64,000 bases of DNA from Mesorhizobium sp. B2-8-5 (lineage in GTDB: Bacteria; Pseudomonadota; Alphaproteobacteria; Rhizobiales; Rhizobiaceae): positions 4,993,501-5,057,500 of the forward strand of contig NZ_CP083951.1 in the NCBI RefSeq assembly GCF_006440675.2. Reading direction: 5' to 3'. Shown in pieces: positions 49,986 through 60,575 of the stretch. Position 1 is the stretch's first letter; each line of letters begins with the position of its first letter. Both the position numbers and the translations under genes were made by a program. The notes under the pieces are model-generated. The model was not told the origin of the DNA and ran no database searches. It saw nothing but the letters and a program-made list of their open reading frames with translations.

Positions 49986-50594
49986 TCAAACCGCGGTCGG
50001 GCTGTTCGCCGAAATCGTTATGTCGAGCGTCACGTGGCCCGCGCCGGGGCCGAAGCGGCAGAAGGCTTCGGCGAGCGTGGCGAACACCGCGCCGGCATCG
50101 CCGCGCAGCCTGGTGCAGAAATTCTTCGAGCGGTCGAAGACGCCGGAGTTTTTCAGGAAGTCGATGCAGCCATAGATCTCGTCCATGTGGTCGCCGGTGC
50201 CCATCACATAGAGCGAGAATTGCGCCGCCACCGGCTGGTCGGTCGAGGGCGTCGCCTCGACGGCGCGGAGCGCGGCGCGCTTGCGCTCCTCAAGCGGAAT
50301 CGCCGGGCCGCCTATCTCGTCCGAGCGGCAGATCGGGTCGTCCGGCTCGCCGGGGCAGCCGCGCGAGACCGCGGCCGACAGCACGCAGTGCCTGCCGCTC
50401 TTCGCCGCCGCGACGAACAGGTCGCGCATGGCGGGAAAAAGCACTTCGGGCGGCCCGACCAGCAGCGTCGAGATATCGTCGGTCTCGATCCTCAGCCTGT
50501 CGCGGTAAGGATCGAGCGCGCCCAACGCGCCAAGGATGACGCCGACGAAATCGTCAGCCATGGGATAAAGGGAAATCTGTGCGCCGGAAAACAT
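49986..50594 (-). CDS. ykoF: YkoF-family thiamine/HMP-binding protein
   Basis: A 202-residue protein of two repeated ferredoxin-like units: QISLYPMADDFVGVILGALG in the first and QFSLYVMGTGDHMDEIYGCI in the second, the hallmark of YkoF, which binds thiamine or its pyrimidine part in the cytoplasm. It is the first gene after the TPP riboswitch, and its ribosome site (GGAGCGAGG) is formed by the 3' edge of the riboswitch, so translation control by thiamine pyrophosphate is likely. Confidence 0.85.
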   Translation of the reverse strand: MFSGAQISLYPMADDFVGVILGALGALDPYRDRLRIETDDISTLLVGPPEVLFPAMRDLFVAAAKSGRHCVLSAAVSRGCPGEPDDPICRSDEIGGPAIPLEERKRAALRAVEATPSTDQPVAAQFSLYVMGTGDHMDEIYGCIDFLKNSGVFDRSKNFCTRLRGDAGAVFATLAEAFCRFGPGAGHVTLDITISANSPTAV

Positions 50595-50603
50595 GGCCCG
50601 CCT

Positions 50604-50690
50604 CGCTCCGCTGGTATTATCCAGATCAGCTTTAGGGTCCGGAGGCTTGCCGCCGCCATCTCAGCCCCGACCGTACGGAGCACCCCTGTG
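50604..50690 (-). ncRNA. TPP riboswitch (THI element)
   Basis: Read on the minus strand it has CACAGGGGTGCTCC, then GGGGCTGAGATGG, a short variable arm, GACCCT, GCTGATCTGGATAATACCAG and CGGAGCGAGG. These are the conserved THI-box blocks (GGGGTGC, GGCTGAGA, ACCCT, CTGATCTGGATAATACC). It would sense thiamine pyrophosphate and shut off the ykoF-thiXZY operon. Confidence 0.93.
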
Positions 50691-50763
50691 GATGGCCGCG
50701 TTAAAGCACTGTTCGAGCGAATGGGAAAGCGGTTTTTTGCGAGGCCAATTGAGCCAAGGGCCC

Positions 50764-57021: not shown

Positions 57022-57381
57022 ATGGGTAGAGATATGGGCGAGATCGTCGACGACCGAATGTGGCCGCGGCGCTCGGATGGGCAGATGTATTTTCCGCAGT
57101 TTCTTGTGGGAATGGTGGCAACGCTTCTGGTGATCCTCGGTTGGACTTACGCCTCCACGGGATCTGTCTGGATGGCGATCGGCTGGACATTCCTGGCGGC
57201 AGTGGTTCTGCAGGCCGGCTATTTCGTGGCCGTGCTCTGGCTCGTGCATGGCGAGACCCGCGTGACCGACGAACGCAAGGCGGACGCAAGCTCGGCACCG
57301 GCCAAGATACCCGGCCCGTTCGAGCGCGACGGCATCATCCACGCTCTCATCTTGTGGCTGTTCCCGAAACTGCTGCCTTAA
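57022..57381 (+). CDS. ExoX/SyrA-type exopolysaccharide production repressor
   Basis: A 119-residue membrane protein. The core MYFPQFLVGMVATLLVILGW, then YASTGSVWMAIGWTFLAAVV and LQAGYFVAVLWLVHGE, matches the ExoX/SyrA family, whose members in Rhizobium and Sinorhizobium modulate exopolysaccharide synthesis from the inner membrane. Family members usually start at the MYFP methionine (57085); the longer start is possible but lacks a better site. The C-terminal 45 residues are cytoplasmic-looking. A GGAAC-N17-AGTT element lies near 56882-56907. Confidence 0.75.
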   Translation: MGRDMGEIVDDRMWPRRSDGQMYFPQFLVGMVATLLVILGWTYASTGSVWMAIGWTFLAAVVLQAGYFVAVLWLVHGETRVTDERKADASSAPAKIPGPFERDGIIHALILWLFPKLLP

Positions 57382-57652: not shown

Positions 57653-58060
57653 TTAACGCGCGGTGGCCGGCGAAGCCGAGCGGACCGTCTCCGAAGACGA
57701 GAAGACGACGAAGCCAAAGACCAGCACCGCAGCGGCGACGATCAGCGAGCCGATCGCCACGACCGGCTCGATCTCCGGATGGCCTGCCGCCAGCATCCAG
57801 TAGAGCGCCGGCAGCATGATCACGATGCCGACCGTATAGAGGCCGTAATGGATCATTGCGATGCGGCGCTCGGCCTTGGCCGGGTTGAGCGCATAGTAGC
57901 CGCCGAAGATGGCGCTGGTGACCCAGCCAAGAAGGTTGATGTGGGCATGCGCGGGAAACGCACCGTGATCGCCCGAAATCGCCATCTGCAGCCCGGCGGC
58001 GATGCCCAGAATAAGAAAGACGATGGCCGTCTTGAAGAAAAGCTCCGATACCCGTGGCAT
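57653..58060 (-). CDS. Small heme-oxidase-like membrane protein, 135 aa
   Basis: A 135-residue protein with four predicted helices. The segment FPAHAHINLLGWVTSAIFGG has the His pair seen in short proteins related to cytochrome-oxidase subunit I and NnrS-type heme-copper proteins; the usual annotation is 'cytochrome-c oxidase' or hypothetical. Four helices are too few for a full oxidase, so a heme-binding or assembly role is more likely. The start lies after a short stretch that lacks a good site. Confidence 0.65.
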   Translation of the reverse strand: MPRVSELFFKTAIVFLILGIAAGLQMAISGDHGAFPAHAHINLLGWVTSAIFGGYYALNPAKAERRIAMIHYGLYTVGIVIMLPALYWMLAAGHPEIEPVVAIGSLIVAAAVLVFGFVVFSSSETVRSASPATAR

Positions 58061-58189
58061 TTTGTTGTCCTCCCAATGCCTCTGTAAACCCGACTCCGCG
58101 AAGTCTACATCCTGCAAGCCATATTAGCCATGGCGTACCTAAGTCAGTGGGGCTTCGGGCGAAAGCCGCGAGATTGTCGACGGCTTTGC

Positions 58190-58275
58190 AAAAAAATGGC
58201 CCGCCTCTTTCGAGGCGAGCCAAAAAGGAGCCGGGCTTGAGGTCGGCCCCATCCAGGTTGCCACCTGAATTTCAG
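58190..58275 (-). ncRNA. Candidate small RNA, copy 1 (three hairpins)
   Basis: On the minus strand: TGAAATTCAGG, the hairpin CAGGT-GGCA-ACCTG, a GGGGCCG...CGGCTCC arm and GGCTCGCCTCGAAAGAGGCG with a closing GGGCC then TTTTTTT. Each block recurs in copy 2 on the other strand at 59573. No minus-strand gene lies directly upstream, so the terminator belongs to its own transcript. Confidence 0.6.
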
Positions 58276-58572
58276 ACGGCGCTAACGTAACAGAACCCGG
58301 AATTTATTCCACCGCTATAGCGGACTGACACGGTAGGGTTTTCCGACCTTGAACAGCGCAAGCCCTTGCCGATCGGCCATCGGAACCAAGGCACTACCAG
58401 ACAGGACGTCGCCCCCTTTTCAGCCGGCGGGTGAAAGCATGGGCTTCAGCGTCCCATCCTTCTGCTAGAACCGATGGTGCAGCACGGCAAGGCGATGCGC
58501 CTTGCACGTCCGCAGCATTTGAGCAATGCTTCGCGACGGGGGTGGTTTCCGTAATTTCGGAAGCACGATTAC

Positions 58573-59115
58573 ATGTTCATTGACTACTACGAACTTCTGG
58601 AAATAAGCCCGAACGCCAATTCTGAGACCATCGAGCGGATTTTCCGCTACTTTGCCATGCGCTATCACCCCGACAATCGGGAAACAGGCAACGAAGCGCG
58701 CTTCAGCGAGATCGTGGAAGCCCACAATACGCTGCGGGACCCAGTCAAACGGGCTCAGTACGACATCCTTTACCGGGAGCATCTTGGCCTTCGTCACGAA
58801 CTCACGGAAGGAGCCCGCGACGGCGGCGGCATGGAGAGGGATACCGTCATCCAGGCCAATCTGCTGTCGCTCCTCTATGTGAGGCGCCGGCGGGACGTCA
58901 ACAATCCGGGCATCGGTGACGACGAGCTCGAGCGCCTGTCGGGCTGCCCTCGCGAGCACCTGGAATTCCATCTGTGGTACCTCAAGGCGAAGGGCTTCAT
59001 CGGCAGGACCGAGAACGGGACGTTCGCGATCACCGTGGAAGGCATCGATCACGCCGGGACCAAACAGGGCCGGGATCGCCCCGACGCCACCCGCCTGCTC
59101 GATCACGCGAGTTAG
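58573..59115 (+). CDS. J-domain protein with winged-helix-like C-terminus
   Basis: A 180-residue protein. Residues 3-65 form a J-domain (DYYELLEISPNANSETIERI, the HPD loop in RYHPDNRETG, RDPVKRAQYDILYREH), so it can stimulate DnaK. The C-terminal 90 residues (RDTVIQANLLSLLYVRRRRD ... LSGCPREHLEFHLWYLKAKG ... TENGTFAITVEGIDHAG) look like a winged helix. Such DnaJ-wHTH proteins are scattered in bacteria; a link from chaperone to DNA-bound control is inferred. It is flanked by the two small-RNA copies. Confidence 0.82.
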   Translation: MFIDYYELLEISPNANSETIERIFRYFAMRYHPDNRETGNEARFSEIVEAHNTLRDPVKRAQYDILYREHLGLRHELTEGARDGGGMERDTVIQANLLSLLYVRRRRDVNNPGIGDDELERLSGCPREHLEFHLWYLKAKGFIGRTENGTFAITVEGIDHAGTKQGRDRPDATRLLDHAS

Positions 59116-59572
59116 GCCGACCATCAAAAGCCCGCCGACTGGCGCCTGAACCAGTGGCGGGGCTCGATGAAGGAACAGCTACATCCCTATCCCTGAGGAA
59201 TCGACTGTCGTCTTCTCAACTCCCCATATCTGGGCTCGGTTCGCCGGGGGCGGCGGAGTCTAAGCCATGCACCATGACGGGCAAGACGAGGAGTGCAGGG
59301 TTACATTGGCGTTGTATTTCGCCGAATACAAGGTGACCGAGGTCTGACGTGCCGACGCATTGGACCGGTGCCGACCCGTCGGGGTGATTACGAGGACGCC
59401 TCGCCAACAGCTTGTTTGAAGCAATACCCGCGTGGCTGGCGTTCGAACATCAAAAGTTGTTGCTGGCCTGTCGTGCCAACGATAAGTGTATCGTAACACG
59501 ATATTTTGCGCCGAACATCCTCACCGCCAGGCCGGCGCCATGCTTTTCATCGCCCAGGAAAGCAAGCATTCG

Positions 59573-59663
59573 TGAAATCAGGTGGCAACCTGTAGCGGGA
59601 GCCGACACCAACAGTGCGGCTCCCGCTTTGGCTCGTCTCGATCGAGGCGAGCCATTTTCTTTC
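59573..59663 (+). ncRNA. Candidate small RNA, copy 2 (three hairpins)
   Basis: TGAAATCAGGTGGCAACCTG (stem CAGGT/ACCTG), then GCGGGAGCCG with its perfect complement CGGCTCCCGC and a 12-base loop, then GGCTCGTCTCGATCGAGGCG with AGCC closing a perfect stem and TTTTCTTTC. It has the same block order as copy 1. No coding gene occupies 59116-59759 apart from this; a 25-codon frame near 59267-59344 is not supported. Confidence 0.65.
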
Positions 59664-59700
59664 TGAAATCGCGAGTGCACGGCCGGCGACATACCGACAA

Positions 59701-59730
59701 AAAAGCCGCCGGGCGGGCCCGGCGGCTTTT
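59701..59730 (-). terminator. Bidirectional terminator hairpin
   Basis: AAAAGCCGCCGGG, CGGG, CCCGGCGGCTTTT: 13-bp perfect arms flanked by A and T runs, 30 bases past the stop of the Gly/Asn-rich gene. Confidence 0.9.
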
Positions 59731-59759
59731 CGTTCATCCTCTGGTCGGTTCGCCCGGCC

Positions 59760-60575
59760 TTACGGTGTTGTCGCCGTGGCGGCGGCTTGCGCGTCGATCT
59801 TGCCCGCCAGCGTGTCCTTGGCCCAGGCGGTGACGTCGGCGTCGACCGGCTTGTTGGCCATCTCGGCAAGGGCCGCGTCCAAGGACGCGTCAGTGGGGGG
59901 CGGCGCGTTGTCAACCGCGGCCTGGGCATCGGTGACCGCCTGATTGTCGGCGGTGATTGCCGTGTTCTGGGCGTCAATCTGCCCCTGAACCTCGGCAACC
60001 TGCGCATCGAGAGCGGCCTGCTGCTCGGGCGTGAAGCCGGTCGTGTCGGTCGCGTTGAGATCGGCGAGTTGCTGAGTGAGGTCGGCGAGTTTGCTCTGGT
60101 CGGTGGTCAATTGGGCGTTCGCGGCGTCGAGCTTGGCCTGCGCGTTCTTGGCCGCCGCGGCCTGAGTCACGTAAGCTTGGACGCCGGCGAATTTCTTGCT
60201 CTTGGAATGCTCGTAGGCGCTCAGATTGCGCTTCAGCGAGTTCAACCGGCCGAGCTTGGCATGAAGGTTCTTCTCCTTCGACGTGGCGGCCGTGGTCGTG
60301 TTGTCGGTCGAGCTGTCGTCGGACGCGCTGTCGTTCGAGGCGCTGTCGGTGCCCTTGTTGTGCCCCGGAGCCGAAGCCGACTTGCCGTGCGAGGCGCCGC
60401 TGTTGCCGTTGCCATTACCACCGGCATTGCCGCCGCCGTTTCCATTGCCATTGCCGCCGCCATTACCGCCGCCATGGCCGTTGCCGCCGCCATTGCCGCC
60501 AGCGTCGGCAAGCGCGGGGGCCGCGGCAAGCGCCAGAATGGCAAGAGATGCCAGAAGTGTCTTTCGCAATGTCAT
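59760..60575 (-). CDS. Exported Gly/Asn-rich protein with coiled coil, 271 aa
   Basis: A 271-residue exported protein. Signal peptide (residues 1-23, ending PALADA), then a Gly/Asn/His-rich low-complexity region (GGNGGGNGHGGGNGGGNGNG), a Ser/Asp-rich stretch, a region NLHAKLGRLNSLKRNLSAYE and a predicted coiled coil (QAKLDAANAQLTTDQSKLAD, LTQQLADLNA; QAALDAQVAEVQGQIDAQNT). GGAGAAG precedes the ATG. Function unknown; a cell-surface structural protein is one possibility. A strong terminator follows. Confidence 0.75.
   Translation of the reverse strand: MTLRKTLLASLAILALAAAPALADAGGNGGGNGHGGGNGGGNGNGNGGGNAGGNGNGNSGASHGKSASAPGHNKGTDSASNDSASDDSSTDNTTTAATSKEKNLHAKLGRLNSLKRNLSAYEHSKSKKFAGVQAYVTQAAAAKNAQAKLDAANAQLTTDQSKLADLTQQLADLNATDTTGFTPEQQAALDAQVAEVQGQIDAQNTAITADNQAVTDAQAAVDNAPPPTDASLDAALAEMANKPVDADVTAWAKDTLAGKIDAQAAATATTP

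Follow-up and report, generated by a model that had tools for sequence, protein, structure and literature searches.

A putative small-RNA family of Mesorhizobium and a palindrome shared between one of its copies and a divergent marR/clc promoter

Results

Layout of the locus

In the window, by which we mean the whole stretch of 64,000 nucleotides that was analysed, a J-domain protein gene lies between two similar elements on opposite strands. A first-pass annotation had described these elements as paralogous three-hairpin small RNAs, and both copies are present where it placed them, have the blocks that it listed in common and can be aligned over approximately 90 bases. We refer to the minus-strand copy as A and to the plus-strand copy as B. 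The features of the locus are the following.

57653-58060, minus strand: gene for a COX1-like membrane protein of 135 aa, downstream of A (PF00115 below its cut-off, 22.6 vs 34.8 bits)
58101-58132, minus strand: promoter-like block assigned to the COX1-like gene, between it and the A terminator (loose pattern fitted by eye)
58190-58277, minus strand: putative small RNA A, whole body (covariance model match at 58185-58277, 105.5 bits, A having helped to build the model; conservation rises at the first bases and falls after the T-run)
58251-58270, minus strand: hairpin 1 of A, core CAGGT-GGCA-ACCTG at 58254-58267 (formed in the fold from 58275 and not in that from 58290; core exact in 21 of 23 A rows)
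58227-58250, minus strand: hairpin 2 of A, loop GACCUCAAGCC, partly complementary to the Shine-Dalgarno sequence (fold and accessibility)
58190-58222, minus strand: intrinsic terminator of A with T-run, stem 58222-58197 (fold and terminator scan)
58278-58317, minus strand: conserved promoter-like block of A, with a -10-like TACGTT ending 6 nt before 58277 (identity 0.57-0.67; putative promoter)
58573-59115, plus strand: gene for a J-domain protein of 180 aa, between A and B (Pfam PF00226, E 3e-18)
59449-59488, plus strand: conserved promoter-like block of B, ATCAAAAGTTGTTGC...GATAAGTG (mean pairwise identity 0.57-0.78; putative promoter)
59489-59503, no strand: palindrome TATCGTAACACGATA, putative MarR-family operator (second place in the genome at marR/clc; co-occurs with the B core motif)
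59570-59665, plus strand: putative small RNA B, three-hairpin body (covariance model match at 59569-59666, 86.1 bits, B having helped to build the model)
59579-59592, plus strand: hairpin 1 of B, CAGGT-GGCA-ACCTG (fold; exact in 8 of 10 B rows)
59594-59627, plus strand: hairpin 2 of B, loop region ACACCAACAGUG (fold; ACACC in 8 of 10 B rows, GACCTC in none of the 10)
59629-59661, plus strand: intrinsic terminator of B with T-rich tail, stem 59629-59654 (fold and terminator scan)

RNA folding from 58275 and from 59573 yields the three hairpins that had been described for each copy, and each copy ends in an intrinsic terminator of its own, stem and T-run included, as had also been proposed. Common to A and B are the near-invariant hairpin 1, a GC-rich second hairpin and the terminator. 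The fold of A reaches -45.3 kcal/mol (z -4.4) and that of B -54.0 kcal/mol (z -7.8), and none of 200 dinucleotide shuffles was as low in either case. Terminator-like sites number five in 57900-60000, compared with an average of 2.0 in shuffles, and none is longer than these two terminators. In hairpin 2, GA(C/T)CTCAAGC occurs in all 23 A rows and GACCTCAAGC in 20 of them, and the GC/GC at the base of hairpin 2 of B is an extension that has no counterpart in A rather than a compensated change. In the 6.46 Mb genome, A and B are the only places with the exact 14-mer CAGGTGGCAACCTG, and the covariance model, which was built from seven copies including these two, gives 32 bits at the next place in the whole genome. 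Six further matches to the core with one mismatch (L003-L008) lack the other blocks and were dropped.

When window A is folded from 58290, with 15 extra 5′ bases, the upstream bases pair with hairpin 1 and the hairpin is lost. Among the 23 A copies, hairpin 1 is present in the minimum-energy fold of 22, 21, 20, 18, 15 and 16 copies with 0, 3, 6, 9, 13 and 20 added 5′ bases, respectively, and it is kept in eight or nine of the 10 B copies with 0-80 added bases. Because the fold of hairpin 1 in A varies with the 5′ end, the exact start matters for this copy. Scanning for the sigma-70 consensus gave no promoter at either copy, but the blocks upstream of both copies are conserved, and it is on these that we infer a promoter for each. 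Since the promoter-like block and the palindrome of B occupy 59449-59503, the B transcript may start well before 59573. The block of A was also considered as an ECF-like sigma-factor site (GGAAT...CGTT); this reading was rejected, the sequence of the block differing in four of 23 loci and its spacing not fitting the ECF consensus.

Distribution of the two copies

The first-pass annotation had proposed a covariance search of related genomes, and homologues do occur in Mesorhizobium. Above 50 bits, 24 of 146 genomes of the genus are positive, with A in 23 and B in 10, and all of these copies adjoin the same COX1-like gene. Copies in the genus are counted only above this threshold; 110 of the 146 genomes have some match at E <= 0.01, and the matches of those beyond the 24 reach at most 34.7 bits and are left out. 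B was not found in 14 of the 23 A-bearing genomes, in one of which (G142) the contig ends before the place of B. In an even sample of 394 genomes of the family, which includes members of the genus, 15 have a match at E <= 0.001; only the copies of the window's genome and of G015 score above 37 bits, and outside the genus the highest score is 30.3 bits. Both genome searches used strict filters, by which weak copies can be lost. A pattern scan of GTDB returned 51 stretches, of which 19 carry A or B (model R2, E <= 1e-8) and the other 32 are uncounted; 17 of the 19 records are titled Mesorhizobium (M. plurifarium, M. hawassense, M. atlanticum and unnamed species), and the remaining two are titled only Hyphomicrobiales and Alphaproteobacteria. 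One strain that has both copies is M. plurifarium STM8773 (L086). Matches in G020 and G017 (L014, L015), in which the core is followed by other sequence with no terminator block, were also not counted. A plasmid search gave only five short matches, which lie inside the J-domain gene in Mesorhizobium plasmids.

The earlier failure to match the copies to a named family agrees with the database: no Rfam 15 family matches A or B of the window, or any of eight related loci scanned, at the gathering cut-off. At a permissive threshold, the matches were all sub-threshold (best 24.5 bits vs 49) and were judged to be due to chance. The only Rfam match above the cut-off in the window is a TPP riboswitch at 50585-50697 on the minus strand (57.5 bits).

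Neighbouring genes and the age of the copies

The order COX1-like gene, A, J-domain gene is found in all 23 A loci. On the COX1 side, a SyrA/ExoX-like gene and other genes of the window follow further out, one of which we label DUF1236-like. In the window, the former encodes a small membrane protein like the exopolysaccharide repressors SyrA/ExoX (57022-57381, plus strand; PF11089 above its cut-off, NCBIfam ExoX below). On the other side, 18 of the 23 loci have a match to the 302-aa protein no more than 3.5 kb past the J-domain gene (in L060 over only 37 residues); the match lies farther away in three loci and was not found in two.

The J-domain gene had been presented as the gene that the two RNAs flank. 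It does lie between A and B in the window, but it is probably not the defining partner of the family, because B in G083 and B-like motifs in G102 and G103 occur without it and G154 has it without the RNAs. Of the 146 genomes, 24 have an orthologous J-domain gene (at least 91% identity), and A accompanies it in 23; the exception is G154 (L131), which has kept the gene and has neither A nor B, with unrelated sequence, apparently another gene, in the place of A. A COX1-like homologue is present in 142 of 146 genomes, in many at only about 40% identity. For comparison we used 20 A-lacking loci at the better COX1-like homologues and eight loci at J-domain genes. The B copy of G083 (52.7 bits) lies beside the COX1-like gene with no J-domain gene there. 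The same is true of the B-like GGTGGCAACC elements with the same palindrome in G102 and G103, which score 11.8 and 14.9 bits with model R1, and in G155 (L139) a degenerate motif with the palindrome has no model match. Since B-like elements also occur without the J-domain gene and A is found only with it, the occurrence of the copies, rather than a tree, suggests that B is the older one.

In G103 and G102, model R1 gave higher scores elsewhere (L144, 29.6 bits; L149, 24.2 bits), and on inspection these matches proved to be not B but a second hairpin-terminator element. This element, GCCGUCUGACCACCUCGGC followed by a terminator, lies downstream of the B-like motif (L144:3445-3550 and L149:3465-3557, both minus strand), and judging from its sequence it is perhaps another small RNA.

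Relation of A to the COX1-like gene

A lies upstream of the COX1-like gene and on its strand in all 23 A loci, and in the 22 loci that could be measured its terminator ends 119-231 nt before the start codon. This arrangement would fit a cis-acting 5′ leader, that is, an attenuator or riboswitch-like element of the COX1-like gene. However, the COX1-like gene has a promoter-like block of its own after the A terminator. With a loose, fitted pattern that has no chance control, the block is found in all 23 loci with A and in 17 of the 22 without it; with a strict pattern, which was relaxed after the sequences were known, it is found in 5 of 23 and 11 of 22. A block in this position makes it probable that A is not the leader of the COX1-like gene and favours a separate RNA. 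In addition, the distance from A to the gene varies about twofold, and in the window the paralogue B is directed towards the end of a convergent gene and is the leader of none. We consider a leader unlikely.

A second possibility is that A regulates the COX1-like mRNA by pairing with its start region, in which GGUGGCA of hairpin 1 would bind AUGCCAC and the hairpin 2 loop would bind the ribosome-binding site. Long imperfect duplexes of -32.0 to -47.5 kcal/mol are predicted in 22 A loci, and their mean z against shuffled start regions is -2.15, compared with -0.72 to +1.25 for five other neighbouring genes (7-22 loci). When window A and its COX1-like start are co-folded, 184 of 6000 background windows are at least as good; for the plain duplex, however, 552 of 6000 are as good. 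The rank per locus extends from 0/400 to 388/400, and 1781 of 9200 pooled windows are as low (mean z -1.6). Moreover, the pairing is hardly specific to its own locus: the mean energy is -6.2 kcal/mol for own and -5.7 kcal/mol for foreign pairs, the own A beats the average foreign A in 13 of 23 cases, and among 18 A-lacking loci there are 10 whose start regions pair with window A at least as well as its own COX1-like start does. B does not pair with this start (4827 of 6000 windows as low). The interaction, striking at first, was thus inconsistent and unspecific in the background and foreign-pair controls; we do not put it forward and regard such regulation as quite unlikely.

Conservation, covariation and coding potential

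Among the 23 A loci, mean pairwise identity is 0.75-0.98 in the body of A. It is 0.57-0.67 in the preceding 40 bases, 0.28-0.57 upstream of these, and falls to 0.34 after the T-run. A second conserved patch, with an identity of 0.81-0.82, lies downstream of the A terminator at +110 to +140 (about 58120-58170 of the window, minus strand). In the 10 B loci, identity is 0.60-1.00 in the body and 0.50-0.78 in a second stretch 50-150 bases upstream; a further conserved patch downstream of B is part of the next hairpin. The core of hairpin 1 is exact in 29 of 33 rows, and most stem pairs vary little.

The first-pass annotation had argued from base changes that keep the stems paired. Such double changes exist in five of 27 pairs (reached by 36 of 500 shuffles) and in eight of 875 pair cells (reached by 1 of 500), but sliding the pairing partners by one column (-1) gives more, namely seven pairs and 13 cells, the highest counts of any slide. 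The covariation score of 0.089 was reached by 75 of 500 shuffles. Standard pairs fill 92.7% of the pair cells in the 33 rows, including row B_G004, which is shifted by one column at the terminator and loses pairs; shuffles give 91.9% (7 of 500 as high), and slides of one to three columns give 34-47%. The structure is therefore well kept but hardly tested by evolution, and its covariation is not above the slid control.

This lack of covariation above controls would also fit a reading in which A and B are merely conserved terminator-like or palindromic DNA repeats with no regulatory RNA function. The third hairpin does resemble ordinary terminators, and the weak model matches elsewhere in the family include plain gene terminators. 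However, conservation is generally higher in hairpins 1 and 2, which are not needed for termination, than in the terminator, the genome has only two strong copies, and the upstream blocks and the palindrome are conserved as well, so that we regard this reading as improbable. A protein-coding role of the region is very improbable: open frames that begin with TTG or GTG do run across A (230 aa in the window, its 5′ part inside A; 142 aa in L012; 237 aa in L013), but the distance from the core motif to the terminator varies by single bases between copies (A row G108 being unmeasured), and these length changes, which would break a common frame, argue against coding.

A palindrome shared with marR/clc

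The new element at this locus, as read from the sequence, is a palindrome near TATCGTANTACGATA upstream of B, which otherwise marks the putative divergent promoter of marR and a chloride channel gene (marR/clc). Neither this palindrome nor the promoter-like block of B had been mentioned in the first-pass annotation. With at most two mismatches, the pattern TATCGTAAYACGATA occurs at two places in the genome. One is upstream of B, and the other (L159:4006-4020, corresponding to C1:3322605-3322619 of the same genome) lies between divergent genes for a MarR-family protein (PF12802, E 1.6e-16) and a ClC channel (PF00654, E 1.9e-78). MarR proteins bind palindromes between marR and its divergent neighbour.

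With at most one mismatch, TATCGTANTACGATA occurs in 94 of 146 genomes of the genus, in 11 of them at two places, compared with 11 of 146 for the reversed control. Twenty sites were chosen from the listed places and fetched; all are flanked by a marR-like and a clc-like gene except one, in G051. The marR/clc palindrome, conserved in much of the genus, is thus a likely, although putative, site of autoregulation.

The small-RNA loci could be scored for the palindrome in 34 of 45 cases (four intervals were too long and seven lacked the gene pair). Of the 13 scored loci that have the core motif, 12 carry the palindrome with at most three mismatches; none of the 21 that lack the motif does (best, five mismatches). 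The three-mismatch cut and the relaxed core motif, which includes one degenerate form, were chosen after the sequences were known. Shuffled stretches average 4.9-6.8 mismatches, and the lowest of 30 shuffles per locus was 1 in a single case and otherwise at least 3. Retention and loss of the palindrome and of the B core motif go together; because related genomes are not independent, this co-occurrence should not be read as a probability. In the nine B copies of A-bearing genomes, the best palindrome match lies 61-88 bases before the model start, and in G083 it overlaps the start. Five of the 10 B copies have two or three mismatches, and one B locus (G120, L073) has five.

Discussion

The first-pass annotation had concluded that the two copies argue for a functional RNA. 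Much of this stands, since A and B are paralogous, conserved, probably non-coding and terminator-ended and have homologues in Mesorhizobium, although the covariation on which it also relied is weak and does not exceed the slid control. In our opinion, A and B are probably a functional new small-RNA family of the ordinary kind, with an unusually specific regulatory lead. On balance, we lean towards a family that is restricted to the genus and consists of stand-alone small RNAs acting by base pairing, with B under a repressor of the MarR type.

According to this explanation, A and B would each be made from its own putative promoter and would end at its intrinsic terminator. B is probably the older copy, and A would have arisen as an inverted duplicate under another promoter; it occurs only in loci that contain the J-domain gene. 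The MarR-family protein encoded at marR/clc probably represses B, because an operator-like palindrome is common to the region upstream of B and the marR/clc promoter, as would be expected of the sequence of a regulon, and B would be released together with the channel, so that a chloride-channel regulator may act as its switch. For both RNAs, action in trans is the most likely mode, with the exposed loop of hairpin 2 pairing with the translation start regions of mRNAs. In A this predicted loop is GACCUCAAG, which is partly anti-Shine-Dalgarno; the loop of B differs, and different targets would thus be expected. The anti-Shine-Dalgarno look is confined to the loop of A, which we count against the explanation, as we do the start-dependent fold of hairpin 1 in A, the covariation at no more than the level of the slid control and the A-bearing genomes in which B was not found. 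Hairpin 1 would be the shared module, and the U-tail would be a site for an Hfq-type chaperone.

More tentatively, and with somewhat less than even confidence, we suggest a history in which the founding member B came under the MarR-type switch that serves a ClC chloride/proton exchanger, so that one repressor would have only two sites in this genome, at marR/clc and at one small RNA. A would then have arisen by duplication and have been recruited to a new promoter when the J-domain gene entered, which would have left two differently controlled RNAs with different loops. The family offers several handles: one hairpin is near-invariant, the two paralogues differ in their loops, and the palindrome is rare and predicts both a regulator and a partner gene. 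The expression condition, the regulator and the targets of A and B are thus directly testable.

Among the known small RNAs of rhizobia, alpha-r14/NfeR1 is described in the available parts of two papers (PMC7143759, PMC3927594) as being, like A and B, an intergenic RNA of three hairpins with several copies per genome, a conserved promoter motif and an anti-Shine-Dalgarno loop. According to the available part of the second, however, its anti-Shine-Dalgarno motif (CCUCCUCCC) is present in all loops and its stems are hypervariable (PMC3927594). In contrast, the partial motif of A, GACCUC, is confined to hairpin 2, none of the 10 B rows has GACCTC, the loop of hairpin 1 is GGCA in both window copies and has no anti-Shine-Dalgarno motif, and the stems of A and B are nearly invariant; by these features the two are set apart from alpha-r14. 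The AbcR1/AbcR2 pair (alpha-r15) also consists of two neighbouring paralogous small RNAs with three stem-loops, according to the available part of a paper that also treats MmgR (PMC7143759). The AbcR genes are in tandem and have two unpaired CU-rich anti-Shine-Dalgarno motifs, whereas A and B are inverted around a gene, differ in sequence, have no Rfam match, and have one partial motif in A and none in the 10 B rows. As in MarR-controlled divergent promoters, the palindrome at marR/clc lies between marR and its divergent neighbour; the difference is that here it is also found upstream of a putative small-RNA gene.

Among the literature matches listed, which came from one library, no paper names the A/B family or a small RNA controlled from marR/clc, and among the matches listed for the core sequence none concerns bacterial small RNAs by its title. 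The available part of a study of M. huakuii small RNAs holds no sequence for comparison (PMC5596092). A title in the reference list of PMC5936775 links sycA, which is a Rhizobium tropici ClC homologue, with acid tolerance, and the expression values given for sycA in the available part of that paper are near zero or slightly negative; its likeness to the present clc is that both are ClC homologues, not established orthologues.

One further weak match per genome, of approximately 30 bits to the model (C1:3670616-3670710 in the genome of the window), looked like a distant paralogue of A and B. We do not claim it as such, because its shared motif GACCTCMAGYCCGG, counted irrespective of context, occurs in 111 of 199 family genomes, often more than once. 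At this place (L021:1501-1595) and in L051-L056 and L160-L162, of which L161 is from another genus, a hairpin with GACCUCCAGUCCGG is followed by a terminator in 10 of 10 loci, and four of the 10 were scanned with no Rfam match at E <= 0.5. In L021 the hairpin lies just 3′ of a gene that we take to be nlpD-like, and from its sequence it is a possible candidate for a separate anti-Shine-Dalgarno small RNA.
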